39,287 nucleotides of DNA, taken from a virus. The stretch spans positions 1-39,287 of IMG/VR virus record IMGVR_UViG_3300042876_000381, one strand, 5' to 3'. The notes beneath the pieces were generated by a model, which searched no databases, was not told where the DNA came from, and was given only the letters and a program-made list of their open reading frames with translations. The position numbers and the translations under genes were made by a program. This document shows, one piece after another, positions 1 through 39,287 of the stretch (its first letter is position 1; every line of letters starts with the position of its first letter).

Positions 1-565
1 CGTCAAGAACGGCAAATACGATAGCGTTTGGCAACTTTGGGAAAAGCGCCGCTTTCTGTCTAGTCCGAAGGGCGCGATCTGCACAAACGAAATGAAGGTC
101 ATTCCGCGCATGGACTTCCAGTTGCCGAGCGATCGCCATGTGTTCGGCTATACAGCCGACGCAGCCGACATAAAACGCGCCATAGACTTTCGCGCCCGCT
201 GGGATTTGATGGACGTTGAAACGCCGTTAATTGATGCGGGGCTGAACAAGTCGAACGTGCTGGCGATGATCGAAGGCGCGGGCATAAAGCTGCCAGTGCT
301 TTACGGCCTTGGCTTCCACAATAACAACTGCATCCCATGTGTGAAGGCGACAAGCCCCGATTATTGGTCGCTGGTCCGCCGCGAATTTCCGGCTGAATTT
401 GAGCGCATGGCAAAGCTATCGCGTGAACTGAACGTGCGCCTCACCCGCATAAAAGAGGAGCGCATATTCATTGATGAAATACCGGCTGACTGGCCCTGCA
501 CCAACCCGATTGCCCCGGCCTGCGATTTCATGTGCCAATTTGCAGAAATGGACAAAGCGGCATGA
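1..565 (+). CDS. PAPS reductase-like protein, C-terminal part (gene crosses the window edge)
   Basis: Open from base 2, with no start needed before the ATG at 92. This is the C-terminal 187 residues of the gene that begins at 39102. Visible motifs fit the phosphoadenosine phosphosulfate reductase / ATP pyrophosphatase superfamily: GAICTNEMK soon after the edge, where the family has GxxCTxxxK, and a Cys pair in NNNCIPCVKA that could help bind a metal or an Fe-S centre. Joined to the 62 residues at the right edge, the protein is about 249 aa, a normal phage length. Phage versions are usually uncharacterised. They may act in sulfur metabolism or nucleic-acid modification, and the substrate cannot be told from the sequence. 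The next gene starts 28 bases downstream. Confidence 0.8.
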   Translation, partial: VKNGKYDSVWQLWEKRRFLSSPKGAICTNEMKVIPRMDFQLPSDRHVFGYTADAADIKRAIDFRARWDLMDVETPLIDAGLNKSNVLAMIEGAGIKLPVLYGLGFHNNNCIPCVKATSPDYWSLVRREFPAEFERMAKLSRELNVRLTRIKEERIFIDEIPADWPCTNPIAPACDFMCQFAEMDKAA

Positions 566-3843: not shown

Positions 3844-4440
3844 CTAATCCGCCTCCTCCGCTAACCCCGCAGTTACCTGATCGCGCGCCCAGTTACCAGC
3901 GTTTATTCCGGCTTTGGCGAGGTCGTTGAGCAATTCAAAGTCTCCGGTGGATACCACGATGGAAGTTTCGGACAAGCCGTCATCCCCTTCGGCAACACGA
4001 TTTTCGGCGGCGGTATTGGTTCCGCTGCTATAGGCAGGACAGACTTTTGACAGCCTGTTGTTATCAGCATAGCGGGCAGAAGCGTCCCGAATAGCAATAG
4101 CGTTGAGATTTGCTTTTTCACGATTGAGCCTTTCGATCTGGATTTGCTTGTCAGTGACCGCCTTGTTCATTGCAATCTGTGCGGCGCGTGCGACTTCGCT
4201 TGCTGCCTTCATGGCGGCAATGGTCTTGTCCCGTTGTTCGACAGTCGCCAGCGCCTTTTCAGCCCGTCCCTGCCACTTGGCGTTGGATAGCCACAGGAAG
4301 CCCACAGAAGCCACCAGAGCGACGATAAGGACGTGCCGCCAGTCAGAGAGCACCCAGCGCACCCCTGCCTTCACAGCGCGTCCTAGAGCCTGTCCTATGC
4401 CGAGTAGCTTGAAGCCGATTGTTGCAAGTCCTAATGGCAT
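3844..4440 (-). CDS. inner-membrane spanin (Rz-like), 198 aa
   Basis: Last gene of the late operon and the last step of lysis: spanins fuse or disrupt the outer membrane after peptidoglycan is cut. The N-terminal ~30 residues precede one membrane helix (HVLIVALVASVGFLWL). A long periplasmic coiled-coil follows (about residues 55-115), as expected for Rz. An Rz1-like lipoprotein gene lies inside it in another frame, which supports the call. Start: ATG with GAAAGGAC seven bases upstream. Confidence 0.8.
   Translation of the reverse strand: MPLGLATIGFKLLGIGQALGRAVKAGVRWVLSDWRHVLIVALVASVGFLWLSNAKWQGRAEKALATVEQRDKTIAAMKAASEVARAAQIAMNKAVTDKQIQIERLNREKANLNAIAIRDASARYADNNRLSKVCPAYSSGTNTAAENRVAEGDDGLSETSIVVSTGDFELLNDLAKAGINAGNWARDQVTAGLAEEAD
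3903..4121 (-). CDS. outer-membrane lipoprotein spanin (Rz1-like), nested in Rz
   Basis: 72-aa ORF starting at GTG with AAAGG seven bases upstream, wholly inside the Rz-like gene in another frame. It has a lipoprotein signal: a basic start (MKKQ), a hydrophobic stretch (LLLFGTLLPAMLI) and a Cys at position 24 in ITTGC. A proline-rich segment follows (AEPIPPPKIVLPKG), typical of Rz1. The lipobox is not canonical, with Thr rather than Leu at -3. A nested Rz1 is a known arrangement in lambda, so I trust this despite the loose lipobox. Confidence 0.75.
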   Translation of the reverse strand: MKKQISTLLLFGTLLPAMLITTGCQKSVLPIAAEPIPPPKIVLPKGMTACPKLPSWYPPETLNCSTTSPKPE

Positions 4441-14414: not shown

Positions 14415-14814
14415 TTTGGAATACCGTCCCGCCGTTTATCGGGAACGCCTGCAAATCCGGCAGCGTGTAGGGTGTGCCATAATCGACATAACCAATCAGT
14501 TCATCATTGGTCGCAGTGTCGTTATACAGAACCACATAGCGGAATGGCCCTACAGTGCCGCCAGAGGCCGATAGCGTGGCCGTTGCAAGCACAAGGCTGT
14601 ATGTCCCCCCTGTCTGGCTTGATGACGTCACAGTGGCCGTTAAACCGCCTGCCGTGTAGCCATTGCCCGCTGCGATTTCCGTAATATTGGCTTTGACCGT
14701 GTTTGACAGGCTCGGCGCGGTGTTGGAAAGCATCCATTTCAGCGTGTCAGAGGCAAGATTGTGCTTCTTTTCGCAAATGTCCTCTAAAAAGCAGTTGAAT
14801 TTGACAAAAGCCAT
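14407..14814 (-). CDS. structural protein, 135 aa
   Basis: N-terminal FVKFNCFLEDICEKKHNL, then repeated Thr/Ser/Gly-rich beta segments (GGLTATVTSSSQTGGTYSLV). It looks like a beta-sandwich virion protein similar to many uncharacterised phage tail proteins. It overlaps its neighbours by 1 base upstream and 8 bases downstream. Confidence 0.6.
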   Translation of the reverse strand: MAFVKFNCFLEDICEKKHNLASDTLKWMLSNTAPSLSNTVKANITEIAAGNGYTAGGLTATVTSSSQTGGTYSLVLATATLSASGGTVGPFRYVVLYNDTATNDELIGYVDYGTPYTLPDLQAFPINGGTVFQIA

Positions 14815-17164: not shown

Positions 17165-17338
17165 TTATTCCTTTCCTGCCGCTTTGGATTTGCGGACTTC
17201 AAATGTTGCGTTGGTGGAAAGAAGGTCGGCCAATTCGGCATCGACCTTCTGCCATTCGCCCTTCATGAACTCCACACCGTAAACGGTGCAGAACTCATCA
17301 TCGGTAGGGTCAGCCGTTGCGATGAAACGGGCTTCCAT
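17165..17338 (-). CDS. hypothetical protein, 57 aa, head module
   Basis: ATG overlaps the capsid stop by one base (TAATG), and the gene ends 3 bases before the next ATG. The protein (EARFIATADPTDDEFCTVYG...ADLLSTNATFEVRKSKAAGKE) is acidic with a basic tail. It resembles short head-module proteins of unknown role. Tight spacing supports expression. Confidence 0.65.
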   Translation of the reverse strand: MEARFIATADPTDDEFCTVYGVEFMKGEWQKVDAELADLLSTNATFEVRKSKAAGKE

Positions 17339-18435
17339 TAGTCAGCAGCCGCGCCGAAGAAGCCCAAAACCATGCCGTGCTGCTTGCCGTTGAAGGCCGC
17401 TTTCTTCACGCCAATGATTTCATCCATGCCGACCGTCATGCGACGATTAAGCGCAGGAATATCGCTCTTTTCAGTGCCTGCCTGCGGCTTCTGGCTGTAG
17501 GCAATGAACACCGACTGCGTGCCACACAGGAACACAGGGCGAATGGGAGCCGACGAAGCACCCGCCGTGTTGAGCCCGTTTGCTGCGGCCCATACGTCGA
17601 TTTCAGGAACCTCGCGGTGAATAACACCGTCAAGGATCAAGTCACCGGCTTGGAACAGCGGGTTGGATTCGACATCACGCGGACGCGCATCGCGGTTGGC
17701 ATTGACCATCGGCGTGTCATTCGACAAATCACGGAACGTGCGCGATCCGTGGAATGCAACCATATATTCCCGGCCCATGTCGTCATTGACCTGATACGGG
17801 GTAATGGCAGGGCTTGCGGCCAGACCGAGGCGCTTCATGACGCCGATACGCGCTGCCGTGCAGGTCTGCGCAGCGGTGACGTTGGCAAGCGCCGTTGCCC
17901 ATGTTGCCGAATAGCCAGCAACCGCACCGAAAAACAGACGGTCTTGGTTGGCAGCAGCAAAGGCGTTGCGGTTTGCAGCCGATGCCAAGCCATAATTGAC
18001 GGTCGTGTCGCCGGTCGTGACAACCGAACCAAAAGCTTCGATAATGTCATCACGCAGCAGTTCGCCAAAATAGCGGGTCAGGCTTTCCTTAGCCGCATTC
18101 ATGACGTCCAGTTCCGTGCGGAACGTCTGGTTCTTTGTGACCGCTACGCCCTTGCCGCGAAGGGCAACAGGCACACCGCAGTTGAAGTTATCAAGCGGAG
18201 TTTCGTTGCCGACAATCGGGGTGTCACCCGTTACCGGCGAACCGCCCAGCTTGTAAAACAGCGGGATATTCAGCGTGTCGCCAGCGCGCTTCTCAAGGTC
18301 GGAATAACCCTGAATAATCGCGTTGGTCGTGTTGTTCACATAGGGGAGGAAGCGCGAACGACGCACATACTCCATGTGGGCCTTGTTGCTCCACTCTTTG
18401 CGCTGCGATGCAGTCGCCAATACAAAATCAGCCAT
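17338..18435 (-). CDS. major capsid protein, N4-gp56 / DUF4043-like, 365 aa
   Basis: Main building block of the icosahedral head (HK97-type fold by family). Matching segments: the N-terminal helix (ASQRKEWSNKAHMEYVRRSR), then GDTLNIPLFYKLGG, NETPLDNFNCGVPVALRGKG and QTFRTELDVMNAAKESLTRY, which follow the N4 gp56 / DUF4043 capsid family. Length of about 365 is usual. It lies directly after the scaffold-like gene and two genes after the portal. Confidence 0.85.
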   Translation of the reverse strand: MADFVLATASQRKEWSNKAHMEYVRRSRFLPYVNNTTNAIIQGYSDLEKRAGDTLNIPLFYKLGGSPVTGDTPIVGNETPLDNFNCGVPVALRGKGVAVTKNQTFRTELDVMNAAKESLTRYFGELLRDDIIEAFGSVVTTGDTTVNYGLASAANRNAFAAANQDRLFFGAVAGYSATWATALANVTAAQTCTAARIGVMKRLGLAASPAITPYQVNDDMGREYMVAFHGSRTFRDLSNDTPMVNANRDARPRDVESNPLFQAGDLILDGVIHREVPEIDVWAAANGLNTAGASSAPIRPVFLCGTQSVFIAYSQKPQAGTEKSDIPALNRRMTVGMDEIIGVKKAAFNGKQHGMVLGFFGAAAD

Positions 18436-19241: not shown

Positions 19242-21053
19242 TTATGCAGCAGCGGCCTTCATGCCCTCAAGCATCGGCTTCATTGCCTCATTCTGCGCCT
19301 TTGCAGCGGTCAATGCCGCGCTGGCTTCCTTGTCTGCAATCTCTGCCGCCATACCGCGCATAGCCATCTCCTGCTGCGGCTGCTGGCCTTGGCTGGCCTG
19401 GTCCGAACGCTCCTTGCGCTTGGCAATCAGCTTTGTCTTTTCAGGCAATGCCGACACTTCCAGCAAATCATCGAACGGCACTTCCTGCGGCCCGTAAATC
19501 TGCGCCAGTTCGACCAGCTTATCAAACTGCTCTTGGGCAAGATTTGCCGTGTCGGGAACGCTGTCGATGGTTATGTCAACATCCATCTCTGCCAGAGCGT
19601 TTTCATAGCCCAAAACAGGCTGCCCAATGCCGATAGAACCATCCTCCTGATACATCGGCTGTGGTTCACCAAGGATAGGCTGATTGATGCCGACAAACTG
19701 CGGCGATCCCGTGTCATCCGTTACCCGAATGAAATCAGCGGCTTTCCAATACTGTTTGCAACGCTGCCAAATCGCCCGAAACACTGACAATTCAAACAGC
19801 CGGATGCCGTTCAACGTCATGGCGCTGTCGACCATGCCAGCCTGTTGACGGGCGATCTGCGCGCGTCCCGATGCGCTTGCCGACTGTTGCGCCAAGACAG
19901 CGGGGTTCTGGCCTATGCGCTGGATGAACTCCCGTGCATTCGCCAAAAGATTGAATTGACCACTCGCCAAATCATTCAGGGAAGCGGGTTGCCAGCCTGC
20001 CGGAATAACACCGTCGGGGCGTGACATTTCTTCCCGCACCATTTGCGCGTCAACCGAATATGCCATTTCCGGGTCTGTCGCCACAGCTTGCCGGTTGTTC
20101 AGCATGTGCAGCAATTTGCTTTCACGCTTGTTTATCGCGTCCTGCGGGCTGCGAAGGTCGCGCACCTCACCGTAACGCCTGTTTTCCCTGTCGATATAGC
20201 AGGAACGGGCTTTAATCGGGCAATCAGGCTTTCCGAACGTATCGACATAAGGCGACGGGCCTGCCTCCAATATCCCGCCACCCCAAAACACACAGCGCGC
20301 CCAACCGAAACGCTCCTTGTGATACATCTCGACAATGAAAACGCGCTTTAGCTTGGGATCAGCCCAACCGAACGTCTGCCCCTCTGGCCTGTCTGCGAAG
20401 CTATCCCCCGCAACACCTAATCCACCCCCGTTATAGTCCACAGCCGACATGATGCCTTGCTGTGCGTCGGGATAAAGCCGTGCAACATTGTCGGCAAACA
20501 TCCACTTGCCGATTCCCATGTAACGGGCATCGTTAAAATCCAGCGCCCTTGAGCGGGGATCGTGGAAAAACTCCTCGAAGCGGATTTGCTCAACATCGAC
20601 GCGGTTGTTCTCATCCACCTGCACAATCGCAGCGGTCGTTCCCTCCACGAAATACTGCAAAGCGCATTGCGTCCGTTTGGCATCCCATTCGGCATAGTCT
20701 TTGACGTAACGCAAAACCTTGGTTGCAACGTCTGCGCTGTCCTCATCCTGCGGATTGCGCGGCCATGCGCGGGGATCGTTCTTGCCTTGCTCCCAAACAC
20801 CGACAAGCCCGCGAACAGCCAGCTTCACCTCATTGAAATACAAAGACGGCTGCTTGCGGCCATCAAGAACCTTGCGCTCGTCCTCGGTCCACTGATAGCC
20901 GTCCCAATAATCGCGGTCGATCAGCGATTCCTTGCGGTATTCGTCGTTTGTGTCGCGCGCGTCTTCAAAGAAACGCTTTAGCTGCGCATGGTCGGGCTGA
21001 TAGGCTACAGTGTTTTCCACGATTCCCCCTGCCCTTGATTGTTCTTGCGCCAT
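19242..21053 (-). CDS. portal protein, P22-like, 603 aa
   Basis: Dodecameric DNA channel at one capsid vertex. Segments typical of the P22 portal family: RYVKDYAEWDAKRTQCALQY, FEEFFHDPRSRALDFNDARY, NRRYGEVRDLRSPQDAINKR and ESKLLHMLNNRQAVATDPEM. A helical, Gln/Met/Ala-rich C-terminus ends the protein. Length (603) is below P22 gp1 (725), which has a longer barrel. The start overlaps the end of terL by 49 bases. Confidence 0.85.
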   Translation of the reverse strand: MAQEQSRAGGIVENTVAYQPDHAQLKRFFEDARDTNDEYRKESLIDRDYWDGYQWTEDERKVLDGRKQPSLYFNEVKLAVRGLVGVWEQGKNDPRAWPRNPQDEDSADVATKVLRYVKDYAEWDAKRTQCALQYFVEGTTAAIVQVDENNRVDVEQIRFEEFFHDPRSRALDFNDARYMGIGKWMFADNVARLYPDAQQGIMSAVDYNGGGLGVAGDSFADRPEGQTFGWADPKLKRVFIVEMYHKERFGWARCVFWGGGILEAGPSPYVDTFGKPDCPIKARSCYIDRENRRYGEVRDLRSPQDAINKRESKLLHMLNNRQAVATDPEMAYSVDAQMVREEMSRPDGVIPAGWQPASLNDLASGQFNLLANAREFIQRIGQNPAVLAQQSASASGRAQIARQQAGMVDSAMTLNGIRLFELSVFRAIWQRCKQYWKAADFIRVTDDTGSPQFVGINQPILGEPQPMYQEDGSIGIGQPVLGYENALAEMDVDITIDSVPDTANLAQEQFDKLVELAQIYGPQEVPFDDLLEVSALPEKTKLIAKRKERSDQASQGQQPQQEMAMRGMAAEIADKEASAALTAAKAQNEAMKPMLEGMKAAAA

Positions 21054-22483
21054 GCAGGCCGGTGAGGGCCGTTGAATCCAACCGTCTTTTGCGTTGACGG
21101 GATGATTGCAGGATGCGCCTGATCTATCGCCCTGCCAATCAAACTGGCCGTATCCACATCGTCGTCATTCTTGCCTGCTGGAAACACCAGAAACTCCGAT
21201 ATGTCCGCACCCGGTTCGAAATACACCCGCCCACTAGCCGCCATTGCCTGAAACGATCGGGCCCGCGTCGGCTTGTCGTGAACGCTCGGCATCCATTCCA
21301 TGCGGCAAAACACATTGCGTTCCCGCATTCGGCGCTTCAGCATCGGCTCGATGGCCTTCTGAATAACCCCACCTTCGCCAAACCAACAAAGCGGCTTGTG
21401 CTTGGCGATCAGGTCCAGCTTTTTCTCAATCCAGACGTCGCTTGTTGCCTGTCCGCGCCATCCGTCAACGCGGTGCACATTGCCATCTGTGTCAATGCCC
21501 CAAACGCGATGCACCGTGTAATCTCCGCCACCATCGGTAACAGCATAATCGCTTGTGCCGTAGTAACGCATCGCAGGCTGTCCCTGCGTCGTCTTGAACC
21601 ATTCCCTCTGAAAGAACGTGCCTTCATCCGGCTGTGGCTGTTGCTGATACAGTGCTGACCATTCACGCGGGCCGATGCTTGCCTTAATCCTGTTCAACGC
21701 CTCGACATTATACCATTCGGGCCAAAGCGCCGCGCCATCCTTGTTAATCGCCGGAAGGTCCAAAACCTCCCATTGGTCGGCTTCACTCTCAAGCAAGCGC
21801 CCTGCTAAATCATCTTCATGCCAGCGCGTCTGGATAAGGACAATCGCGCCACCCGGCATAAGCCGAGTGTAGAGGGTCGAACGATACCAGTCCCATACAA
21901 CATCGCGGCGGCGCTCGCTATCTGCTTCCTCACGATCCTTGAACGGGTCGTCAATCAAAGCAATGTCAGCGCCACGTCCCGTTACTGCCGTTCCAACACC
22001 AGCAGCAACATAAGTGCCACCATGATTGGTATTCATCCGGTTTGCTGCTTGACTATCAGGCGCAAGGCTTACCTTTGGAAACACCTGCCCAAATTCAGGG
22101 TCGGCAACGATATTCCGCACATTCCGGCCAAAGTCGCTGGCAAGGTCGCTGTTGTAACTCGCCGCGATAATCTGCCGCCTTGGGTTCCTGCCCAAACACC
22201 ATGCAGGAAACCGTTTTGAAGCCAATTCCGATTTACCATGGCGCGGCGGCATGAATATCATCAGCCGGTCAATCTCGCCACGCTCCACAGCCTCCAGCTT
22301 TTCCGCTATCAGCCGATGATGATTTGCCCCCTTGTAAAGCGGGTTTGTATATTCAGTGAACGCGAGAAGACTTTTCCGAGCCTGCCGCGTTCTCAATTCC
22401 CTCTGTAACGTCTCCAATTCCGTCAAGCAGGAAAGGAGAGAGTTGCGCGGCAAGGTCTCGGATGCGCTGTGCAAGTTCGTCAT
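21005..22483 (-). CDS. terminase large subunit, 492 aa
   Basis: Packaging motor ATPase and nuclease. Walker A is PPRHGKSE (about residues 79-86), Walker B is DIALIDDP (about 173-180), and the coupling region follows (RRRDVVWDWYRSTLYTRL). The RNase H-like nuclease half includes GTSDYAVTDGG near 325 and a late DDVDTASLIGRAI. The frame opens 131 bases inside terS, so the real start may lie further in, perhaps a TTG near 22400 just before RTRQARKSLLAFTEY. A headful (pac) mechanism would fit the split gene at the window edges. Confidence 0.9.
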   Translation of the reverse strand: MTNLHSASETLPRNSLLSCLTELETLQRELRTRQARKSLLAFTEYTNPLYKGANHHRLIAEKLEAVERGEIDRLMIFMPPRHGKSELASKRFPAWCLGRNPRRQIIAASYNSDLASDFGRNVRNIVADPEFGQVFPKVSLAPDSQAANRMNTNHGGTYVAAGVGTAVTGRGADIALIDDPFKDREEADSERRRDVVWDWYRSTLYTRLMPGGAIVLIQTRWHEDDLAGRLLESEADQWEVLDLPAINKDGAALWPEWYNVEALNRIKASIGPREWSALYQQQPQPDEGTFFQREWFKTTQGQPAMRYYGTSDYAVTDGGGDYTVHRVWGIDTDGNVHRVDGWRGQATSDVWIEKKLDLIAKHKPLCWFGEGGVIQKAIEPMLKRRMRERNVFCRMEWMPSVHDKPTRARSFQAMAASGRVYFEPGADISEFLVFPAGKNDDDVDTASLIGRAIDQAHPAIIPSTQKTVGFNGPHRPAWRKNNQGQGESWKTL

Positions 22484-22745: not shown

Positions 22746-22920
22746 TGATAGCCTCATCCCAATCACCGCTCACAATGCTCTGGCTTTGCGTCCAGCTTGC
22801 TGCGGTTGCTGTTGTCTGTTCTGTCCAGTTGTTCGACGTGGTGCTTTGTGATTGCGACCAGTTGCCCGTTGGAACCAGTTGCGGATTGTCGATTGTCGCG
22901 GTCAGGAAAAGCAGTGTCAT
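22738..22920 (-). CDS. 11-residue Trp-repeat protein, 60 aa
   Basis: After a beta-like start (MTLLFLTATIDNPQLVPTG) the protein has Trp at positions 21, 32, 43 and 54, exactly every 11 residues, in units such as GNWSQSQSTTS, NNWTEQTTATA and ASWTQSQSIVS. ATGA overlap with the gene before and an 8-base overlap with terS. Unknown family. The periodicity suggests a small beta-solenoid or a binding motif, perhaps of a virion part. Confidence 0.6.
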   Translation of the reverse strand: MTLLFLTATIDNPQLVPTGNWSQSQSTTSNNWTEQTTATAASWTQSQSIVSGDWDEAINV

Positions 22921-24224
22921 ATAAAGCTTATGTTATATTTGACTTCGCCCGCGCCGATTGCGGTTGTGTCATTGTCTGCTTCTAATCCAGTCACCGAAAC
23001 ACAAATGCCCGTCGTAAAGCGAATGCCAAGCAGGCCCGGATCAATATAGGTCGTGCTATTGGCTGGCAGTTCGATGCAGAGTTGAACGGCTGTCGTTCCC
23101 GGCGTTACCGTCGTGCTATTGTGTAATTTCAGAAATCTGGCACTGTCCGCGCGGTTGGTAATAATGCCCCCGTAAATGATTCCCGCGCTCGCTTTGATGA
23201 CCGTGCCGTTTGTCGAAGCGGCGCTGTTCAGAATTGCGGCTTGCGGCGTTCCCGGCGTTGACGATACGCTGCCAGAGACAGGCTGCGTTCCACTTATCTG
23301 TGCACCTGGAATAGGCTCTGTCGCATAGGAACCGGGTTGCAGGATATAAGCCGCCGTGCCGCTTGTGTGTGCCGTTGCCCGCACCCGAAAAGCGTTCCAG
23401 CCATTGACCGACACTTCCCAACCGTAAACAGGGGTTGCCGCCAAGACACCCGATGCAATTTCAATTGTGTTGGCGTTGGTTCGGATGGCCTGCATCTGAT
23501 ACCATGTGCCATCGCTGCCGTTGGTCGTATTGTTTGAGACTTCAAAAGAGGTATTATGGCCGACAAGCGATGTTGCCACCATGCTGAAAACAATGTTTGA
23601 AGCGCGGGAACAATTAAGCCAGACTATCCCGCCGTTTGTCGTGATGCTGCCAGTTGTGGCTGCATAGCTGGCGGGCTTGGTTGCTACCTTGACCCGACCC
23701 TCCTCATCGATCTTTACTAGCGTGTAATCGCCGTCATTGTCGGTTGACGTGGTATCAGCAAGCTGGCGCATGGCCAGCAGCGGAATGCCCTTGTCGCCAG
23801 ATGCAGCAGCAGCGTCTTCTGCCTTGAAATAGCCCTCTATTGCCTGAATTTCGCTGTCGATGCTGGCAAGGCTTGCCTCTATGCCGTCCACGTGGCCTAT
23901 CAGCGTGTCTTGTTTGACAGCCGTTGCCAAAGCAGCAAGGGCAGTCTCCACCCCGTCAACAGCCGCGATGATTGTGTCCTGCCTTGCCGCTGTTGCTAAC
24001 GGCGAGAAAGCGGCAAGGCTGGTCGCCCCCAGTTCGGTCGTTTCAAGTGCCGCCAAGCTGGCAGCATTCAAAGCCACCGGAACAGGGTTTGACGCGCTTA
24101 CAATGCTTTCGGTCGTGTCATCGCCAATGTCGAGATTGACAACTTGAATTAGCTTTCCAGCCTTTTCGTTGGCGCGGGCTTCGAATGTGGCTGTCGCACC
24201 TTTTAGAGTGACGTCATCCGCCAT
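22917..24224 (-). CDS. structural protein, fibre-like, first gene of the late operon, 435 aa
   Basis: Residues ~60-130 are helical with a 23-residue tandem repeat (LATAARQDTIIAAVDG, then LATAVKQDTLIGHVDG). A beta-rich region follows, with a C-terminal domain ending GIRFTTGICVSVTGLEADND then EVKYNISFI, an ending I associate with phage head-fibre or decoration proteins. It is the first late gene, ahead of the terminase, which is unusual for a structural protein. Start: ATG with CAGGAG six bases upstream. Confidence 0.65.
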   Translation of the reverse strand: MADDVTLKGATATFEARANEKAGKLIQVVNLDIGDDTTESIVSASNPVPVALNAASLAALETTELGATSLAAFSPLATAARQDTIIAAVDGVETALAALATAVKQDTLIGHVDGIEASLASIDSEIQAIEGYFKAEDAAAASGDKGIPLLAMRQLADTTSTDNDGDYTLVKIDEEGRVKVATKPASYAATTGSITTNGGIVWLNCSRASNIVFSMVATSLVGHNTSFEVSNNTTNGSDGTWYQMQAIRTNANTIEIASGVLAATPVYGWEVSVNGWNAFRVRATAHTSGTAAYILQPGSYATEPIPGAQISGTQPVSGSVSSTPGTPQAAILNSAASTNGTVIKASAGIIYGGIITNRADSARFLKLHNSTTVTPGTTAVQLCIELPANSTTYIDPGLLGIRFTTGICVSVTGLEADNDTTAIGAGEVKYNISFI

Positions 24225-24586
24225 GGCGCACTCCTGTGTTTACCCCCGCACAACCGAACGCTCTTAGCTAAATAGCTTTCTGTGGTCTTCGTCGGGGCGG
24301 GGTTGCGCCGTGTGGGGCGCTAATGTGTTTTGCGCGGGCCGGTCGCCTGTCCGGCATGGGAGGTGGCTGTCTCACGCTTCAGGGCGATCAATCCCGCGCA
24401 ACGCTGCTCATAATCCCAATCACTGCCTGCTCTCATTCCTAGCTGGCGGTCCCCATACAGTGAACCCAATGGCTAGCAGGCAAGAGCTTCCGCGCAATCT
24501 CTGAATCAAAATGCGCCCGAAACACGATGGCTGCGGACGCAATTAGAATAATCTCATTTCGGCCCTTATCACAATCCGCGCCATTG
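24225..24586 (-). promoter_or_regulatory. 362-base structured non-coding block before the late operon
   Basis: No convincing ORF. Visible inverted repeats: TGCCTGCT/AGCAGGCA (24424-24431 and 24475-24482) enclosing CTAGC/GCTAG; GCCGG/CCGGC (24338-24342 and 24351-24355); GCGCC/GGCGC (24305-24309 and 24316-24320); and AGCT-AAAT-AGCT (24266-24277). The region lies between the last early gene and the first late gene, where lambdoid phages carry the late promoter and its antiterminated leader. A - strand TTGTGA, 18 bases, TATTCT near 24550-24575 is a possible promoter. Confidence 0.55.
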
Positions 24587-25099
24587 TCAATCAGCAATCG
24601 CACTTAGCGCGTCCAATGCTTCGCGCAAATTATCTTGGGGCTGTTGTGCATCCTGCAACAGCGCGTCCAGCCACTTCGGGCCGTTGTCAGGGTGAATGTC
24701 GATAACCAGTTGGTCAAATGACCGGCGCACGTTCCGGCCCATGCGGTTTACGCAGTCCAGCACTTCATGCAGCCACTCTTCCTGCTGGCGCACCCGCTCA
24801 TGGTCGATGGAAATAACCGTGCCAAAGTTCTTTTCGCCAATGCAACTGCGAACCGTCCCTGTGGCGTAGGCTTGCCAATAGGCGCGCGACACTTTGCGGG
24901 CTGTGTCCAAAAGGTTCTTTGCTTCCGAACCTTCGCCTAACAGGCCGGAGCGATACGCCCTGCCTATAGCATCACAGTTATCAGGGCCGTAAAGCACCTG
25001 CATTGCTTGAGCGCGTTCTGTGCCTTTGTCGAAGTTTGCAGCCGAACGGGACAAGCGCCCGCTTTTTGTCCGCGATCCCTTTTTGCGTGGCCTACCCAT
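24587..25099 (-). CDS. conserved phage protein in the Q position, 170 aa
   Basis: Basic N-terminus (MGRPRKKGSRTKSGRLSRSA), then a helical core with LYGPDNCDAIGRAYRSGLLG and KNLLDTARKVSRAYWQAYAT, then ERVRQQEEWLHEVLDCVNRM. I do not recognise the family. It is the last early gene, directly before the non-coding block and late genes, the place of a late-gene regulator (Q-type antiterminator or activator) in lambdoid phages. The basic N-terminal arm would suit RNA or DNA binding. Start chosen at ATG 25099, which gives a short overlap with the gene before. Confidence 0.7.
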   Translation of the reverse strand: MGRPRKKGSRTKSGRLSRSAANFDKGTERAQAMQVLYGPDNCDAIGRAYRSGLLGEGSEAKNLLDTARKVSRAYWQAYATGTVRSCIGEKNFGTVISIDHERVRQQEEWLHEVLDCVNRMGRNVRRSFDQLVIDIHPDNGPKWLDALLQDAQQPQDNLREALDALSAIAD

Positions 25100-25304
25100 C
25101 CCAATGCGTCTCCCGTGTTCTGCGCAGCCGTTCTGCTGCCAGTATGTCCCGTGCCTCGTATGCGTATTGCAGGCCATGCCAGCGCATCAGCTTGGCGATA
25201 ATGCCCGGTGCGTTTAGTTCCTGTTCGGTCATGGTGCGCAGTGACCTGTGGTCAGGCTGCAATGCGTCGGCCCATGCGCCGGGGTGGCTGTCTGTGTCGA
25301 TCAT
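25092..25304 (-). CDS. hypothetical protein, 70 aa
   Basis: ATG overlaps the preceding stop (ATGA). Helical: MTEQELNAPGIIAKLMRWHG and YAYEARDILAAERLRRTR. No domain recognised. It lies between a small unknown and the Q-position protein in the early leftward operon. Confidence 0.6.
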   Translation of the reverse strand: MIDTDSHPGAWADALQPDHRSLRTMTEQELNAPGIIAKLMRWHGLQYAYEARDILAAERLRRTRETHWDG

Positions 25305-25662: not shown

Positions 25663-26032
25663 TCCACCAGTCTATTCCTTGGCTGGCGGGAGCAGGTGCG
25701 GCGTAGTTGCCGGGTATCTGACCGGGCAACCAATAGCGCGGCGGCTTGGCATAATCGCAGTTCAGATAGCAGCGGTTCCACGCGATACTGCGCAGATTGA
25801 AGGGCATCCGGTCGATCTCGGCTTGGGTGACGCGCCCCCATTTGACAGCGTTCAAATCGCGGTCGGTTTGCGTTTCCACATGCTGCAATTTTGGGCTGCC
25901 GTCATGGCCAACAACCCACGCAACATCGCTGCGTTTCAATTCTGCGTTCCAGCGCGCAACCCGTGCGTCAACGCTTTCAGTGGGGCGTTCGAATTGCGGA
26001 GTCCGGCGCATTGCTAACGGATTATTGGTCAT
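25652..26032 (-). CDS. hypothetical protein, 126 aa
   Basis: Start chosen at ATG 26032, overlapping the stop of the replication gene. The N-terminal region is basic and polar. The middle reads AWVVGHDGSPKLQHVETQTD, and the C-terminus is aromatic and Pro-rich (AKPPRYWLPGQIPGN, IDWWNEP). No motif identified. Confidence 0.6.
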   Translation of the reverse strand: MTNNPLAMRRTPQFERPTESVDARVARWNAELKRSDVAWVVGHDGSPKLQHVETQTDRDLNAVKWGRVTQAEIDRMPFNLRSIAWNRCYLNCDYAKPPRYWLPGQIPGNYAAPAPASQGIDWWNEP

Positions 26033-26717
26033 AATTTCCCTCAAGCGTTTTCTGAAAATTGGCCTTTTTGAAAATCCAGTCGAATGTCGCGCCGCGCCAG
26101 TTTGGCGTGTCACCGCGCAAAAACGGGCTGCGTTCGATCTTGCCAAACACGTTCACGAAATCGTCAATCGAGTATTGGGCTATCCGTGCTTTCAGCAGTT
26201 TCCGTCTCTCTGGCGTGAGATCGCGAGCCTTGGGCTTGCCAAGCTTGCCAGCAAGATCATTCCAATGTTCCAAAATATGTTCGGGCTTGAGTGCATCGCC
26301 AGATGCACAAGAACCTTTAGGTTCTAATTCTGTATCTGTATCTGTATCTGGGAGCGTTTCTGAAACGTTACATGGTTGTTTCACAGCGTTACGGGCTTTG
26401 TTTTCCCTATGTTTTTTAACTCTTTCGCTGCTATTATCGCTGCGATATTGCAATTTATCCCATGACACGGGATGCATGTTTTCATCGATCAATTCGACTT
26501 CGCGCAGGCGGCGTCCAATCTCCTCAAGTTCACGCACTTGGACACCCAAGCGAACGGCAATCCTGCGGTCGCGCAGGGAACCTAATTCACCGTCAAGCGC
26601 CCCCTCTGACTTGAGGCAGCACAAAGCGACAAAGTGCCAGCGGTCTTCGAAAGCAAGCAGGCGCAGCTTGTCGTCATCGATCATGCGGCTGTATGCGCGG
26701 AACCACTGCATACTCAC
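26022..26717 (-). CDS. phage replication initiator-like protein, 231 aa
   Basis: N-terminal winged-helix-like region WFRAYSRMIDDDKLRLLAFE...WHFVALCCLKSEGALDG, with LRDRRIAVRLGVQVRELEEI, is typical of phage O-type or replisome-organiser proteins. A charged linker follows (SERVKKHRENKAR plus an Asp/Thr repeat), then a DnaD-like C-terminal region ending KPEHILEHWNDLAGKLGKPK and FLRGDTPNWRGATFDWIFKK. It would bind the phage origin and load helicase. Starts at GTG with GGAGGA six bases before, overlapping the DnaA-IV-like gene by GTGA. Confidence 0.75.
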   Translation of the reverse strand: MSMQWFRAYSRMIDDDKLRLLAFEDRWHFVALCCLKSEGALDGELGSLRDRRIAVRLGVQVRELEEIGRRLREVELIDENMHPVSWDKLQYRSDNSSERVKKHRENKARNAVKQPCNVSETLPDTDTDTELEPKGSCASGDALKPEHILEHWNDLAGKLGKPKARDLTPERRKLLKARIAQYSIDDFVNVFGKIERSPFLRGDTPNWRGATFDWIFKKANFQKTLEGNYDQ

Positions 26718-29472: not shown

Positions 29473-29663
29473 GATGCGCGACCTTCAAGCGGCGGCAAAT
29501 GCGGCTCGACTGCTTTCAAGGTGGCGGCGGTAGGGTTCCAGTTATCGTCATCCACGCCAAGCAATGTGTTGGGATGCAGCCCCGCCAGCTTGGCCAGCCC
29601 TGTTTTCGTATATCCCGGTCGCTTGAGTGTGGCGCGAATATGATTGATAGTGTCATTTACCAT
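29469..29663 (-). CDS. Cro-like HTH repressor, 64 aa
   Basis: Small DNA-binding protein, VNDTINHIRATLKRPGYTKT then GLAKLAGLHPNTLLGVDDDN, with an XRE-type helix-turn-helix. It is the first gene of the leftward early operon and divergent from cI, so it fills the cro slot. The ATG at 29663 falls on the predicted transcription start and no Shine-Dalgarno is present, suggesting a leaderless mRNA. An upstream in-frame ATG (29672) lies inside the promoter and is unlikely. Confidence 0.75.
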   Translation of the reverse strand: MVNDTINHIRATLKRPGYTKTGLAKLAGLHPNTLLGVDDDNWNPTAATLKAVEPHLPPLEGRAS

Positions 29664-29670
29664 GACCAGC

Positions 29671-29699
29671 ATAAAAGCATATTTCAATATGCTATTCAA
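29671..29699 (-). promoter_or_regulatory. leftward early promoter (pR-like) of the cro-like gene
   Basis: On the - strand: -35 TTGAAT (29699-29694), 17-base spacer occupied by an operator, -10 TTTTAT (29676-29671). The layout is the same as the rightward promoter at 30721-30749. Repressor bound in the spacer would block RNA polymerase. Confidence 0.7.
29676..29693. promoter_or_regulatory. operator 1 (perfect dyad)
   Basis: AGCATAT-TTCA-ATATGCT, a perfect 7-bp dyad with a 4-base centre, in the spacer of the leftward promoter. It is the best copy of the four operators. Confidence 0.75.
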
Positions 29700-29706
29700 G
29701 CGCAAA

Positions 29707-29724
29707 AACATATCAGCATGTGCA
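29707..29724. promoter_or_regulatory. operator 2, near the predicted cI promoter
   Basis: On the - strand TGCACAT-GCTG-ATATGTT, an imperfect copy of operator 1 placed 31 bases away (three helical turns). It lies upstream of a possible cI promoter (-10 TTATAT at 29734-29739), so the repressor bound here could regulate its own gene. Confidence 0.65.
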
Positions 29725-29747
29725 AGCGGTCATTTATATCCCGGCGC

Positions 29748-30416
29748 ATGGAAAAGACTGCCGACGAGAAGCGCGAGATACTGCGCAAGTTCATAAAGGA
29801 CCGCGAATTGAAGATCGCGCGCTGGTGTAAGGAATCCGGCGTTGACAAAAACAGCGTTTACAATTTTTTGAACGGCCATTCGCAATCGCTCGATTTGCGG
29901 ACATACGGCAAATTGGCTAGAACGGCGGAAGTGCCGGTTTGGCAGTTATCAGGAGACCAACCGCAAGCGCCTAGCCCTACGTCAATCTGGGTGGCAGGCG
30001 ATGTGCAAGCAGGGGCGTTCAGAGAAGCAGTGGAGTGGGATCAATCAAACTGGTATGGCGTAGATGTGCCGGTGCCAGCGCAATTCAGAGGCCGCGCGAA
30101 GGCGTTAGAAGTCCGTGGCACTTCGATGAATATAGACTATCCCGAAGGCAGCATTGCAGTTTGGGTGCCAATGTTGGATTTCCGCCCGCCGCGCAATGGC
30201 GATGACGTGCTTGTGTATAGCTACTGTCATGACGGGCTGGTGGAGGCGACGTTGAAAGAATTTAGGATCGATGATGGTGGCGCAAAGTGGCTATGGCCGC
30301 GCTCCCACGATCCACTGCATCAAGCGCCTGTGGATATGGCGAATCCTAGCGGTGCGATCCGCGAAATCGAAATCGTCGGGATAGTGATAGGGTCATACCG
30401 ACCCCGCCACCATTAG
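29748..30416 (+). CDS. CI-like repressor with S24 peptidase domain, 222 aa
   Basis: Residues ~10-60 form an HTH domain (IKDRELKIARWCKESGVD then KNSVYNFLNGHSQSLDL). Residues ~80-215 form the LexA/CI-type S24 self-cleavage domain: Ala88-Gly89 in DVQAGAF as the cut site, Ser126 in RGTSMNID as nucleophile and Lys170 in ATLKEF as base. It maintains lysogeny and would be inactivated through RecA after DNA damage. No Shine-Dalgarno precedes the ATG and the predicted -10 (29734-29739) lies only 8 bases before it, so the mRNA is probably leaderless, as lambda cI from pRM. Confidence 0.85.
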   Translation: MEKTADEKREILRKFIKDRELKIARWCKESGVDKNSVYNFLNGHSQSLDLRTYGKLARTAEVPVWQLSGDQPQAPSPTSIWVAGDVQAGAFREAVEWDQSNWYGVDVPVPAQFRGRAKALEVRGTSMNIDYPEGSIAVWVPMLDFRPPRNGDDVLVYSYCHDGLVEATLKEFRIDDGGAKWLWPRSHDPLHQAPVDMANPSGAIREIEIVGIVIGSYRPRHH

Positions 30417-32240: not shown

Positions 32241-32572
32241 TGGATAGCCTTAAGCCGTGTCCGCTGTGTTCTGGACGCGCCCGCCTGGTGACGTTCAAAA
32301 AGCGCATCGGTCGTGTTTGCCCTCACACTGTTTTTCGGCAGCACATCCAATGCACAAAATGCGGGCTTCAAAGCAAGCAGTCTAAATCCAAAGACGCCGC
32401 CGAGCGCATGATAAAGCGCTGGAATACCCGCCCCGATGCAACTGCACTGGTAGAGGCTTTGCAGGGCTTGCTTGAAGCCACGGAGCGCCATGTCTTTGGC
32501 GACGAATGCCTTGCGGAACGGGAAGCCGCCCGCGCCACACTTCAGCAATGGAAGGACAAAGCTAATGGCTGA
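32237..32572 (+). CDS. Lar-like zinc-ribbon protein, 111 aa
   Basis: KPCPLCSGRARLVTF, HIQCTKCGLQSKQSKSKDAA and ERMIKRWNTRP follow the restriction-alleviation (Lar) family: two CxxC knuckles then A-x-x-x-WN-x-R. Lar of Rac prophage modulates host EcoKI restriction, but most phage members are untested. The C-terminal ~45 residues are an extra helical extension. It overlaps the ERF gene by 8 bases. Confidence 0.75.
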   Translation: MMDSLKPCPLCSGRARLVTFKKRIGRVCPHTVFRQHIQCTKCGLQSKQSKSKDAAERMIKRWNTRPDATALVEALQGLLEATERHVFGDECLAEREAARATLQQWKDKANG

Positions 32573-33431
32573 CAATGGTATGGCACAGCCCGCCGTCTAT
32601 AAGGCAATTGCTGCCGTGCAAGGCGAACTTGCCAAGACTGGCATTGCAAAAGAAGGCGTCAATTCATCGCAGAACTATAAGTTTCGCGGTATCGACCAAG
32701 TTTACGGCGCATTGTCCCCCTTGCTTGCCAAGCATGGCCTTTGTGTCATCCCGCGTGTGATTGACCGCGAAATGCACGAGCGCGTCACCGTAAAGGAGTG
32801 GAACGGCCAGAAAAAGGAAAGCGTCCTTTTTTATGTGACCGTCCATGCCGAATTTGACTTTGTGTCGGCAGAGGATGGCTCGAAGCACACCGCAGCCACC
32901 TATGGTGAGGCGATGGACAGTGGCGACAAGGCGACGAATAAAGCCATGTCAGCGGCTTACAAATACGCTGCCTTCATGACGTTCGCAATCCCCACGGAAG
33001 GGGATAACGACGCGGACGCTTCAACACATGAAGTGCGGCCAAGGGCGGATGTTGGACAAAGCAATGGCACGGTTAGCCAGCATCCGCCTGCCAATGATAC
33101 CAAGCGCGCTGAAAAATGGGAAGGTGCTTATTCCGGCAAATCTGCCCTGCACAAAGGCCTGATTGCGGTCGAGCGCAACATTCGTGGTTGCGGCGATAGC
33201 GACCAGCTTGAAGCCTATCTGGCAACCGACGAATACAAGGATTTTGTCAAAAGCTGCGAACGCTACAATCCCGTTTATCTGACGGGCGGCGATCCTGCCC
33301 CGCCTGAATTTGTCGGCATCAATGATCTGGTTGCCAAGATGCGGACCGACTTTGCCAACATCGCTTCGCTTGGCGGCGATAGCATCCCTGATTTCATTCA
33401 CGAACAAGCTGCGAACGTCGCGGCAGGATAG
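32565..33431 (+). CDS. erf: ERF-family single-strand annealing protein, 288 aa
   Basis: Homologous recombination protein. The N-terminal half has VYKAIAAVQGELAKTGIAKE, NYKFRGIDQVYGALSPLLAK and HGL, then ATYGEAMDSGDKATNKAMSA with AYKYAAFMTFAIPT: the ERF superfamily pattern (YKFRGIDxV and GDKATNKAxSxAxKYA). The C-terminal half is variable. Start set at ATG 32565. Followed by SSB and a Ref-like nuclease, it forms a recombination cassette, as in P22. Confidence 0.9.
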   Translation: MADNGMAQPAVYKAIAAVQGELAKTGIAKEGVNSSQNYKFRGIDQVYGALSPLLAKHGLCVIPRVIDREMHERVTVKEWNGQKKESVLFYVTVHAEFDFVSAEDGSKHTAATYGEAMDSGDKATNKAMSAAYKYAAFMTFAIPTEGDNDADASTHEVRPRADVGQSNGTVSQHPPANDTKRAEKWEGAYSGKSALHKGLIAVERNIRGCGDSDQLEAYLATDEYKDFVKSCERYNPVYLTGGDPAPPEFVGINDLVAKMRTDFANIASLGGDSIPDFIHEQAANVAAG

Positions 33432-33439
33432 GAGTTACC

Positions 33440-33883
33440 ATGTCAGATTTAAACCAATGCACATTCACAGGACGGCTTGGCGCTGATCCTGAAATCAAAT
33501 CATTCCAAAATGGCGGGCGCATTGCCAACATGCGCCTTGCGGTTGGCAGCCAGTGGAAAGACAAACAGACAGGCGAGAAGAAAACCCGCACCGAATGGGT
33601 AAGCCTTGTCGCCAATCAGGATGGCCTTGTCGGGGTTGTTGAACGCTTCTTGCGCAAGGGCAGTCAGATTGCTGTTGTCGGTGAAATGCGCACACGCAAG
33701 TGGCAGGACCAGAGCGGAAACGACCGCTATTCAACCGAGGTCGCAATCGACAAGTTGACCATGCTTGGCGAAGGCAAGGGTGGCGGCGAAGCGCACGGCA
33801 CGGCACAAGGGCAGAGCGCGGGCTTTGCGGACGATCTCGATGATGACTCCGTGCCTTTCGCGCATTGCAATTCGATATTCTGA
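33440..33883 (+). CDS. ssb: single-stranded DNA-binding protein, 147 aa
   Basis: OB-fold SSB: LNQCTFTGRLGADPEIKSFQ, NMRLAVGSQWKDKQTGEKK, TEWVSLVANQDGLVGVVERF and LRKGSQIAVVGEMRTRKWQD. The C-terminal region is Gly-rich, then has the acidic tip DDLDDDSVPF (131-140), but seven more residues (AHCNSIF) follow it. The tip normally ends the protein and binds partner enzymes. Start: ATG with AGGAG five bases ahead. Confidence 0.9.
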   Translation: MSDLNQCTFTGRLGADPEIKSFQNGGRIANMRLAVGSQWKDKQTGEKKTRTEWVSLVANQDGLVGVVERFLRKGSQIAVVGEMRTRKWQDQSGNDRYSTEVAIDKLTMLGEGKGGGEAHGTAQGQSAGFADDLDDDSVPFAHCNSIF

Positions 33884-36729: not shown

Positions 36730-36947
36730 GCGAATGGCCCGCCATGATGCTGCGCAAGACAGCCGCGAAATATTGTGACTTGTCAGAAGCGGCATTCGAA
36801 CGCGAAGTCAACGCGGGGCGGATTGTTGCACCTGTCATGTTTGGCGGGCGTCCACACTGGCATAAGGCCGCGCTAGATCAGGACCTAAAACGCATTGCCG
36901 GACTCATGGCGGACTGGCGAACGGAAAGCAAATTATATGGGACTTAA
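36726..36947 (+). CDS. AlpA/excisionase-like DNA-binding protein, 73 aa
   Basis: LRKTAAKYCDLSEAAFEREV, NAGRIVAPVMFGGRPHWHKA and ALDQDLKRI form a winged-helix of the MerR/AlpA excisionase type. It sits immediately before the integrase, overlapping it by 11 bases, the usual place for a recombination directionality factor. GTG 36726 chosen for the GTGA overlap; ATG 36744 is another option. Confidence 0.7.
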   Translation: MSEWPAMMLRKTAAKYCDLSEAAFEREVNAGRIVAPVMFGGRPHWHKAALDQDLKRIAGLMADWRTESKLYGT

Positions 36948-37950
36948 GACCCTGCCCTATGTGAAATATGTCAAAGCGCGAGGCCGCGACTATTGGTATT
37001 TCGACACTGGAACGACCGTAAATGGAAAGGCAGTCTATAAGCGCCTGCCCCACCTAAAGGATGCGGGCTTTGGCGCGTCCTATGCCTCATTCATGGCAGG
37101 CCGGACAAGGCGCGCAAATGTCGCTGCCTATATGACTGTTGGCAAGATGATCGAACTGTTTGAGGCCAGCCCCAAGTTTCAAGCCCTGTCAGCCGGAACG
37201 CGCAAAACTTATGGCATCCACTTGCGCAAGATCGAAGCGCTTGTCGGTAACGCGCCGGTCAATGATTTGGAGCCGCGTGACGTTTCCCGCATGATGGACG
37301 AACATTCGGCAACCCCCGGCACTGCAAACATGATCCTGTCAGTCACAGGCGCGCTATACAAATGGGGCAGACAGAGGCACCATGTCTTGCGCACCGTCAA
37401 TCCAACACAGGACATTGCCGCGCTGGAAATGGGCAGTCATGACCCTTGGCCTGAAAATGTGCTACAGGACGCCTTGGCATCGGATAACGACCGCGTTCGG
37501 CTTGCGACCCACTTGCTCTATTACACCGCGCAACGGATAGGCGATGTCTGCCGGATGCGCTGGTCAGATATTCGCGGCGGCGTGATCAGCGTCAAACAGG
37601 AAAAGACCGACAAGCCGCTTGAAATAGTCTTGCATTCCGCACTAGCCGAGGAACTGGCTAGGACGCCCCGTAGAGGCATGACGATCCTAACGAACTGGCG
37701 TGGACAGCCAGTTGGCGACCACCCTATCAGAACGGCCTTAAAACGCCATGCAGAGCAATATGGCTTGAACCTTGTCCCTCACGGCCTGCGCAAAAATGCC
37801 GTCATCGCCCTTTTGGAAGCTGGCTGTTCGGTTGCCGAAACCGCTTCCGTATCTGGTCAATCATTCCCGATGGTTGAGTATTACGCCAAGATGCGCAGCC
37901 AGAAAAGACTATCCAGCGCGGCCATTTTGAAGTGGGAAAACAAATCGTGA
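36937..37950 (+). CDS. int: tyrosine recombinase / integrase, 337 aa
   Basis: Integrates and excises the phage. The N-terminal ~60 residues form an arm-type binding domain (KYVKARGRDYWYFDTGTT), a SAM-like core-binding domain spans ~65-150, and the catalytic domain ~165-330. Catalytic residues: Arg200 in TAQRIGD, His282 and Arg285 in PHGLRKN, and Tyr315 or Tyr316 in MVEYYAK. The second conserved His appears as Gln308 (SGQSF), a substitution found in some family members. Start set at ATG 36937. Confidence 0.9.
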   Translation: MGLKTLPYVKYVKARGRDYWYFDTGTTVNGKAVYKRLPHLKDAGFGASYASFMAGRTRRANVAAYMTVGKMIELFEASPKFQALSAGTRKTYGIHLRKIEALVGNAPVNDLEPRDVSRMMDEHSATPGTANMILSVTGALYKWGRQRHHVLRTVNPTQDIAALEMGSHDPWPENVLQDALASDNDRVRLATHLLYYTAQRIGDVCRMRWSDIRGGVISVKQEKTDKPLEIVLHSALAEELARTPRRGMTILTNWRGQPVGDHPIRTALKRHAEQYGLNLVPHGLRKNAVIALLEAGCSVAETASVSGQSFPMVEYYAKMRSQKRLSSAAILKWENKS

Positions 37951-38174
37951 ATCGGAAAACAGTCGGAAAATTAACTGTAGGACGGCGGAATTGCGCGCTT
38001 GACAGTAACGTGTCGATTAAGCTAACGTCGCAACAATCCTACGGTTTTGAGGGATTGCGCGAGAAAACAGCCGTCAATTGCGTCAATCACTTAGCTACAG
38101 GGTGGAAAACAAAACGGGCCGAATTGCTGCGCGAACAGCAACCGGCCCTGACCAATAGACGAAAGGACCGTCCA
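37951..38174 (+). promoter_or_regulatory. 224-base non-coding region after int; candidate attP and promoter
   Basis: Contains direct repeats TCGGAAAA (37952-37959 and 37963-37970) and GTCAAT (38073-38078 and 38082-38087), a possible -35 TTGACA (37999-38004) with a poor -10, and a hairpin leader (next entry). attP is usually beside int, so these repeats may be integrase arm sites. No tRNA-like segment is seen, so the core is unknown. Confidence 0.4.
38116..38148 (+). promoter_or_regulatory. leader hairpin before the second HNH gene
   Basis: GGGCCG (38116-38121) pairs with CGGCCC (38143-38148), with an inner GCTG/CAGC stem (38126-38129 and 38136-38139). It is preceded by AAAAC and followed by TGACC, then GAAAGGA and the ATG at 38175, the same order as before the DnaA-IV-like gene. 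No U-tract follows, so it looks like a 5' leader structure rather than a terminator. Confidence 0.6.
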
Positions 38175-38834
38175 ATGGCTTCCCGCCCCCATATCCCTAT
38201 CTTGCCACTTTTGGAAGGCCGCGCTGGCGATCTGCGCAAAATGCGCTTTTGGTCAAAGGTTGACATTGGCGCACCGGAACAATGTTGGGACTGGCAAGCA
38301 TCGGTCAATGAAAGTGGTTACGGTCGTTTCAAGATCGCCGATGGTCGGACCGTTCGGGCGCATCGCTTCGCCCTTGTGTCTAATACAGGACAAGAGCCGG
38401 ACGGCCTAATTGCCTTACACAGTTGCGACCGTCCGCAATGCTGCAATCCTCACCATTTGCGCTTTGGCACCGATGCCGACAACAGCCGCGACAAAATGGA
38501 GCGGGGCCGCGCCAAAGGCAAAGATCAATCCGGCTTTGAAAATGGGAACCGGAAACTGTCACCCGATGAATTGGCGCTAATTGTCACCCGCTTGCAGGAA
38601 GGCAAAAGCAATGTGCAAATTGCAAATGAGGTTCGCACGGTCGGCCAATCGCTCGTTAGCCGCATTCGTGTTGGGCGTAGCTGGCAAAAAGAAACCGCTG
38701 CGCTTGGCTGGAAAACACCCGTTGCGGAAAGCGCGGTAAACCAAAATCAGGCAATTCTATCCGAACTCGCCCGCGTCAAGGTGGCGTTCCAGCTTCGCAC
38801 GATCTGCGCTGTGATGGGAGTAAATCATGACTGA
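38175..38834 (+). CDS. HNH endonuclease, 219 aa
   Basis: RFWSKVDIGAPEQCWDWQAS-type opening (here FWSKVDIGAPEQCWDW), GRTVRAHRFALVSNTGQEPD, and the HNH core ALHSCDRPQCCNPHHLRFGT plus DADNSRDKMERGR. The C-terminal ~80 residues carry an HTH (KLSPDELALIVTRLQEGKSN, VQIANEVRTVGQSLVSRIR). A longer frame exists from 37932 but GAAAGGA supports the ATG at 38175. Likely a free-standing homing-type nuclease. Confidence 0.8.
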   Translation: MASRPHIPILPLLEGRAGDLRKMRFWSKVDIGAPEQCWDWQASVNESGYGRFKIADGRTVRAHRFALVSNTGQEPDGLIALHSCDRPQCCNPHHLRFGTDADNSRDKMERGRAKGKDQSGFENGNRKLSPDELALIVTRLQEGKSNVQIANEVRTVGQSLVSRIRVGRSWQKETAALGWKTPVAESAVNQNQAILSELARVKVAFQLRTICAVMGVNHD

Positions 38835-39102
38835 CAAATTCACCTATCCGAAATCATGGGATGAGCCTCACGCTATACCCGAACCGATTAGCGGCGCTCT
38901 GCGCAAGGCGTTGGTGGATGCACAGGAACGCACACTCGCAATGTCGCCGGAAGAAAAGCAGGCGATGTTCGAAGCGCAAAAGGCAAGCTGGTTACGCGGC
39001 ATGGGGCCGTGTGAGCATGGCGATTGTGATTGGGAAACCTGCGCGCAATGTCTCGCCACCCCCCAGCCCGACACAATGGGCGTTTCTGACAGGGGGTTGT
39101 GA
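38827..39102 (+). CDS. hypothetical protein, 91 aa
   Basis: Helical middle (GALRKALVDAQERTLAMSPE, EKQAMFEAQKASWLRGM), then a Cys-rich part (CEHGDCDWETCAQC) that may bind zinc. A common type of small protein in phages of this kind, function unknown. It overlaps both neighbours (8 bases and 1 base). Confidence 0.7.
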   Translation: MTDKFTYPKSWDEPHAIPEPISGALRKALVDAQERTLAMSPEEKQAMFEAQKASWLRGMGPCEHGDCDWETCAQCLATPQPDTMGVSDRGL

Positions 39103-39287
39103 TGGGGCGCGTAGTCATCTGGTTTTCCTGTGGTGCCGCCAGCGCGGTTGCAGCCAAAATGGCTTTGCAAAAATATCGGGGGAAGCGGGAGGTTGTGATT
39201 GCTTACTGCGATGCAGGCGGTGAGCATCCCGACAACAAGCGCTTCATGGCCGATTGCGTTCGCTGGTTCAATCAGGATGTAATGATC
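39102..39287 (+). CDS. PAPS reductase-like protein, N-terminal part
   Basis: First 62 residues: VVIWFSCGAASAVAAKMALQ holds the PP-loop (SCGAASA, cf. S-G-G-x-x-S), which binds the adenylyl nucleotide, and YCDAGGEHPDNKRF follows as in PAPS reductase-like proteins. The frame runs off the right edge and continues at base 2 (entry at 1-565). ATG overlaps the previous TGA by one base. Confidence 0.85.
   Translation, partial: MGRVVIWFSCGAASAVAAKMALQKYRGKREVVIAYCDAGGEHPDNKRFMADCVRWFNQDVMI

Follow-up and report, generated by a model that had tools for sequence, protein, structure and literature searches.

Opposite edges of an IMG/VR record fall within one gene, pointing to a complete, circularly mapping genome of a temperate Pam1-like phage

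The stretch analysed here (the window) is 39,287 bases long, and each of its two edges cuts a reading frame of the PAPS-reductase-like family. This raises the question of whether the two edges belong side by side and, if so, whether the window holds a complete phage genome. The window is an entire IMG/VR record (G000), so its edges are contig edges rather than the limits of an arbitrary extraction. The analyses below indicate that the record very likely represents a complete genome whose map is circular and which the assembler linearised arbitrarily, headful and permuted packaging being the likely cause of the circular map.

Edges of the record and the split reading frame

At the right edge, 62 codons starting with the ATG at 39102 extend up to the final base (...NQDVMI; the last codon, ATC, occupies 39285-39287), and a GTG three bases upstream of this ATG is also a possible start. 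At the left edge, a frame open from base 2 (VKNGKYDSVW...) continues for 187 aa to a stop at 565. Joined plainly end to start, the two parts are out of frame; bases 39287 and 1 are both C, and dropping one of them yields a single frame of 249 aa, as the original prediction had read it (Table 1).

An open frame across the join is weak evidence when taken alone. Among end pairs drawn at random from the window, 582 of 4,000 (15%) yield a frame that stays open for 250 codons or more, with at least 60 on each side, and frame continuity was therefore rejected as proof of closure; homology is decisive. Comparison of the window ends showed that they share neither an inverted repeat nor a direct repeat of more than 1 base. 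The longest terminal identity, a single base, falls short of the 20-bp minimum that CheckV and IMG/VR set for the direct terminal repeat of a closed genome (PMC8116208). A one-base end overlap is also present in a related IMG/VR record (G002, described below) and was considered as a signature of the pipeline; this idea was discarded, because the ends of G002 do not join parts of one recognisable protein.

Table 1 Features of the window discussed in the text
Feature	Position	Strand	Evidence
Redundant base (= C of base 39287)	1..1	+	both on one base of the L003 locus; 0-nt gap in 78/78 loci
Split PAPS-reductase-like gene, 3' half (187 codons)	2..565	+	phrog_424 E 4.4e-22; opened by the left edge of the record
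First leftward gene of the left arm	3844..4440	-	homologue in G002 at 13292-13837
Lysozyme	4799-5335	leftward	profile search
DNA-ejection protein	12342-13271	leftward	profile search
Head closure Hc3	14814-16142	leftward	profile search
Major capsid protein (MCP)	17338..18435	-	phrog_334 E 3.4e-45; 86% identical to Pam1
Portal, Pam1-like	19242..21053	-	Pam1 portal 7eep E 8.5e-276; 67% identity
Terminase large subunit (TerL)	21005..22483	-	phrog_38 E 4.7e-120; 84% identity with Pam1; in one clade with Aaphi23
Likely small terminase	24587-25177		
DnaD-like replication gene	26022-26717		profile search
S24 repressor	29499-30416	rightward	profile search
Erf-like single-strand annealing protein	32472..33431	+	phrog_155 E 4.1e-38; PF04404 E 8.1e-20
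SSB	33440-33883	rightward	profile search
Tyrosine integrase	36895..37950	+	PF00589 E 3.5e-16; phrog_1 E 1.4e-37; right-hand side of the join
HNH endonuclease gene, between integrase and split gene	37932..38834	+	phrog_1872 E 2.9e-26; PF13392 E 1.5e-7; probable start more internal, e.g. ATG 38176
Split PAPS-reductase-like / PP-loop gene, 5' half (62 codons)	39102..39287	+	phrog_424 E 1e-13; SCGAAS PP-loop-like motif; cut by the right edge of the record

Comparison of the join with homologues

The two halves match consecutive ranges of the same profile, phrog_424, with the 5' half covering 161-219, the 3' half 231-392 and the joined protein 161-392 (E = 2.5e-41), which bears out the earlier claim that the gene cut at the right edge has its remainder at the left. 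The nearest intact homologue is L003 in IMG/VR record 3300047548_000442 (G002, 37,752 bp). In the alignment to this locus, window base 39280 corresponds to base 9993 and window base 1 to base 10000, so that bases 39287 and 1 share one L003 base. The gap between the halves was also projected onto related IMG/VR loci in which both halves were found separately, and was exactly 0 nt in all 78 of them with the shared base counted once, giving a unit genome of 39,286 bp. Moreover, the joined protein and the L003 protein are equally long and identical at 217 residues (87%), and none of the 32 invariant columns of a 26-member alignment is altered in the joined protein. On these alignments, the two edges of the record are shown to be adjacent in relatives, to the base, and the map of the window phage appears almost certainly closed.

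The residue at the join is Ile, against Arg in 12 of 18 aligned homologues. This would fit a linear fragment that ends near its own start and lacks a few bases or one codon at the join; two extra bases, for example, would supply an additional Arg residue. Such a residue is present in none of the 78 homologues, however, and a shared C is expected under an overlap but in only one case in four under a gap. In addition, two unrelated contig edges would meet on one homologous base with a chance of about 1 in 39,000. The loss of two bases, restoring Arg by adding a residue, thus seems unlikely from the alignments, and a gapped fragment of any such kind is highly improbable. An exact-pattern scan of IMG/VR and GTDB contigs for the join, allowing 0-30 bases in between, found nothing, and no second copy of the window phage therefore spans the join in these collections.

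The joined protein belongs to phrog_424, on the basis of its profile match and the conserved residues it keeps. It carries the PP-loop motif SCGAAS and conserved cysteines at 89, 172, 236 and 240; a Pfam search recovered no family in the split protein, although the PHROGs profile did match. A C-terminal ECG(I/L)H motif marks CysH, the true PAPS/APS reductase. This catalytic cysteine motif is absent from the joined protein, which, judged by its residues, should not be named a true CysH. Since the motif is lacking, "PAPS reductase", often listed as a viral sulfur-metabolism gene, is probably a misleading name for the family. Structure prediction was carried out on the L003 homologue, because the linear record holds no uninterrupted coding sequence for the joined protein, and gave a predicted CysH fold (Z 11-13; pLDDT 88.6). 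The closest solved structure by sequence is PDB 21fy "PptA" (E = 9e-54), for which a literature search found no paper.

Homologues can thus test circularity to the base without reads, which makes them useful as a completeness check. In the present case one gene that annotation would list as two fragments is rescued, and the record is recognised as a probable complete phage genome despite failing the usual 20-bp terminal-repeat rule, while its biology is what would be expected of any temperate tailed phage.

Gene order across the join and relatives of the window phage

The closest isolate to the window is Pseudanabaena phage Pam1 (ON014753, L269; 36,043 bp, deposited circular). The Pam1-like podovirus block TerL-portal-scaffold-MCP-cement-adaptor-needle is homologous and syntenic in the window, and the order of the structural block, repressor region and integrase is shared between the two. 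Unlike the window, Pam1 is 3.2 kb shorter and has another tail-spike body, and no PAPS-like gene was detected in it. Both an integrase and a repressor were found in the window by profile search, as expected of a temperate integrating phage. The integrase, S24 repressor, Erf and SSB genes, together with the chromosomal prophages described below, indicate a temperate lifestyle, and the window is on this gene content assigned to a temperate Pam1-like podovirus.

In G002, the PAPS-like gene (9933-10679), an excisionase-like gene, the integrase (10901-11935) and left-arm homologues follow one another on one contiguous stretch. Beyond the integrase lie homologues of the window genes at 3844, 6338 and 8211 and of the tail spike, on to the portal (30808), the homologue of the first leftward gene of the left arm starting 1.4 kb past the integrase. 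In Pam1, the integrase (23473-24465) and the lysis end (20515) are likewise adjacent, about 3 kb apart with small opposite-strand genes in between. By this synteny, the right arm of the window runs into its left arm in both G002 and Pam1, that is, the gene order crosses the join. The integrase search alignment in G002 (10889-11935) includes a single in-frame TGA, situated at its end or close to it.

G002 resembles the window in its intact 249-aa PAPS-like gene and its integrase (79% identical), but differs in its capsid, which is only 38% identical; TerL was not found in the G002 record. The PAPS-like gene follows the integrase and HNH gene in the window, whereas in G002 it precedes the excisionase and integrase; it is thus mobile within this segment. 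Together with the HNH gene, it occupies an accessory position flanked by the integrase and the lysis end (window 37932-38834, 38827-39102 and 39102-565).

Prophages with a TerL of the window's type (68-77% identical) are present in 4 of 397 Sphingomonadaceae genomes (G021, G022, G084 and G112), and other relatives, whose integrase is located at the prophage end, lie in the chromosomes of Novosphingobium mathurense and Parasphingopyxis. In the Sphingomonadaceae genome G084, whose phage TerL is 72% identical to that of the window, a chromosomal prophage (C1:2941275-2979419) is accompanied by a separate closed contig, C2, of 38,127 bp (L284-L288). C2 matches the prophage of the same genome in two blocks at 99.995-100%, the copies differing by a single alignment gap. 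The last and first bases of C2 map next to each other on the chromosome, at 2961575 and 2961574, and within C2 the prophage ends meet at the 17-bp core CCTGTAGGGCGCGCCAC beside the integrase. This match demonstrates that the group exists both integrated and as an exact circular permutation. Unlike the window, G084 has a different integrase (29% identity) and its own att core. The proposed one-base duplicated edge and 39,286-base unit are thus backed by the 78 homologues, by two contiguous relatives and by a relative seen both as prophage and as permuted circle.

The integrase-side prophage ends of G021, G022 and G084 fall between the integrase and the lysis end, the segment in which the window's join also lies. 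The record could on this account be an integrated prophage cut back to its attachment sites, attP then lying within the PAPS-like gene, which integration would split. A tyrosine integrase requires an identical core of several bases, however. The prophage ends of G084 share such a core of 17 bp, while the record ends share 1 base and the record has no flanking host DNA, leaving this reading barely credible. An attP with matching attL/attR was found for G084 but not for the window, G021 or G022; a search for attL/attR cores in G021 and G022 found none, nor was a tRNA found in the stretches scanned in the attachment-site search.

The extrachromosomal, circularly permuted contig that G084 carries besides its prophage would also be in keeping with a lasting plasmid-like circle, in which case the window would represent a phage-plasmid and not a phage that is chiefly integrated or packaged. 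Spontaneous excision explains the G084 circle, the window encodes an integrase and a phage-type replication gene, and no searched gene matched a partition or plasmid replication family; a phage-plasmid is hence very improbable. That Pam1-like phages in general maintain a persistent extrachromosomal circle alongside the integrated copy or in its place, should the G084 contig be more than mere spontaneous excision, seems very unlikely, if slightly less so.

Closed maps also occur among the full-size relatives (16 records of 36.7-41.8 kb). Eight of the 16 end in direct repeats, of 53, 99, 122, 123, 123, 127, 127 and 127 bases, most of which are of assembler k-mer size; repeats such as 55, 77 or 99 bases are left where assemblers break a circular template (PMC8116208). 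The unit lengths of seven repeat-ended relatives are 38.6-40.3 kb, a range that the 39,286-bp unit of the window matches, and the edges of one relative (G008) split its portal gene. On a map starting from the portal, the edges of seven records lie at 0.04, 0.14, 0.29, 0.39, 0.62, 0.78 and 0.92, and those of the window at 0.46. Since assemblers open circles at random (PMC8116208), the scattered edges show closure but are by themselves no proof that virion DNA is permuted.

Packaging and host

In a TerL tree, the window, Pam1 and Haemophilus phage Aaphi23 fall in one clade with support of 100/100, although the tree is deep and its branches are long. The Aaphi23 TerL is 38% identical to that of the window over 456 aa; the likeness to this phage, a myovirus, refers to TerL only. 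Aaphi23 carries the nearest TerL with experimentally known ends, which are headful, permuted and redundant (PMC3556154, PMC10269795), so the window TerL is kin to that of an experimentally headful phage. The gene order recalls that of Salmonella phage P22 (TerL, portal, scaffold, coat, adaptor and needle, with Erf and an S24 repressor), for which headful, permuted DNA is expected, as proposed for the window phage. A P22-type terminase, considered because of this order, was ruled out by the TerL comparison: the P22 sequence is not detectably related to that of the window (phmmer E 0.97), P22/Sf6-type TerLs (E 0.61-0.97) lie outside the window clade, and the window TerL does not group with P22, Sf6 or ES18. 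With respect to packaging type, the authors of the Pam1 study described its TerL as "unclustered" (PMC9382816). In the window, a 435-aa gene without a PHROGs match (22917-24224, minus strand) separates TerL from the likely small terminase, whereas the two terminase genes of Pam1 adjoin.

A virion genome that is linear with fixed ends, either short direct terminal repeats or cos, would yield the same map if the assembler had collapsed the repeat or had read through intracellular concatemers. Fixed terminal repeats are known to collapse in assembly and to mimic circular permutation (PMC3556154, PMC8862349), and the TerL that follows Aaphi23 in relatedness, though weakly, is that of T7 (phmmer E 8e-6). 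A fixed repeat is visible in none of the records examined, however, and the permuted and redundant ends of Aaphi23 speak against this possibility, which we regard as unlikely. Given a closed map, headful permutation is likely. The original prediction had left a choice between a circle and headful-permuted DNA: the closed map stands, and the choice, undecidable from sequence, is one in which the TerL family favours headful packaging without proving it. For a phage of this sort, each of the two forms is to be expected, at separate stages of its cycle.

Under headful packaging, virions would carry circularly permuted, terminally redundant DNA, the presumed cause of the circular map. The infecting linear DNA would become a circle in the cell by recombination involving the Erf-like annealing protein, and the circle would either integrate by means of the tyrosine integrase or replicate to concatemers that are packaged headful. 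In P22, Erf represents the enzyme class that circularises permuted, redundant DNA, and the Erf-like protein of the window would suit circularisation through terminal redundancy. The record itself very likely comprises a single unit of 39,286 bp and one base that is repeated, with the assembly graph having closed on itself and the circle having been opened arbitrarily by the assembler or pipeline, inside the accessory PAPS-reductase-like gene. The single shared base may be the remnant of a trimmed terminal overlap or a one-base slip at ring closure.

The host of the window phage is probably an alphaproteobacterium, namely a sphingomonad. Pam1 is reported from a cyanobacterium, while the window's other relatives are sphingomonad prophages. 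In 386 genomes from the phylum of G419 (titled Thermosynechococcus MAG), the best match of this TerL type is 44% or less, and Pam1, reported from the cyanobacterium Pseudanabaena, is 84-86% identical to the window in TerL and capsid. An alphaproteobacterial GcrA-like gene is annotated in Pam5, a phage co-occurring with Pam1 (PMC9382816). Sequence similarity thus suggests that the real host of Pam1 may be a sphingomonad accompanying the culture.
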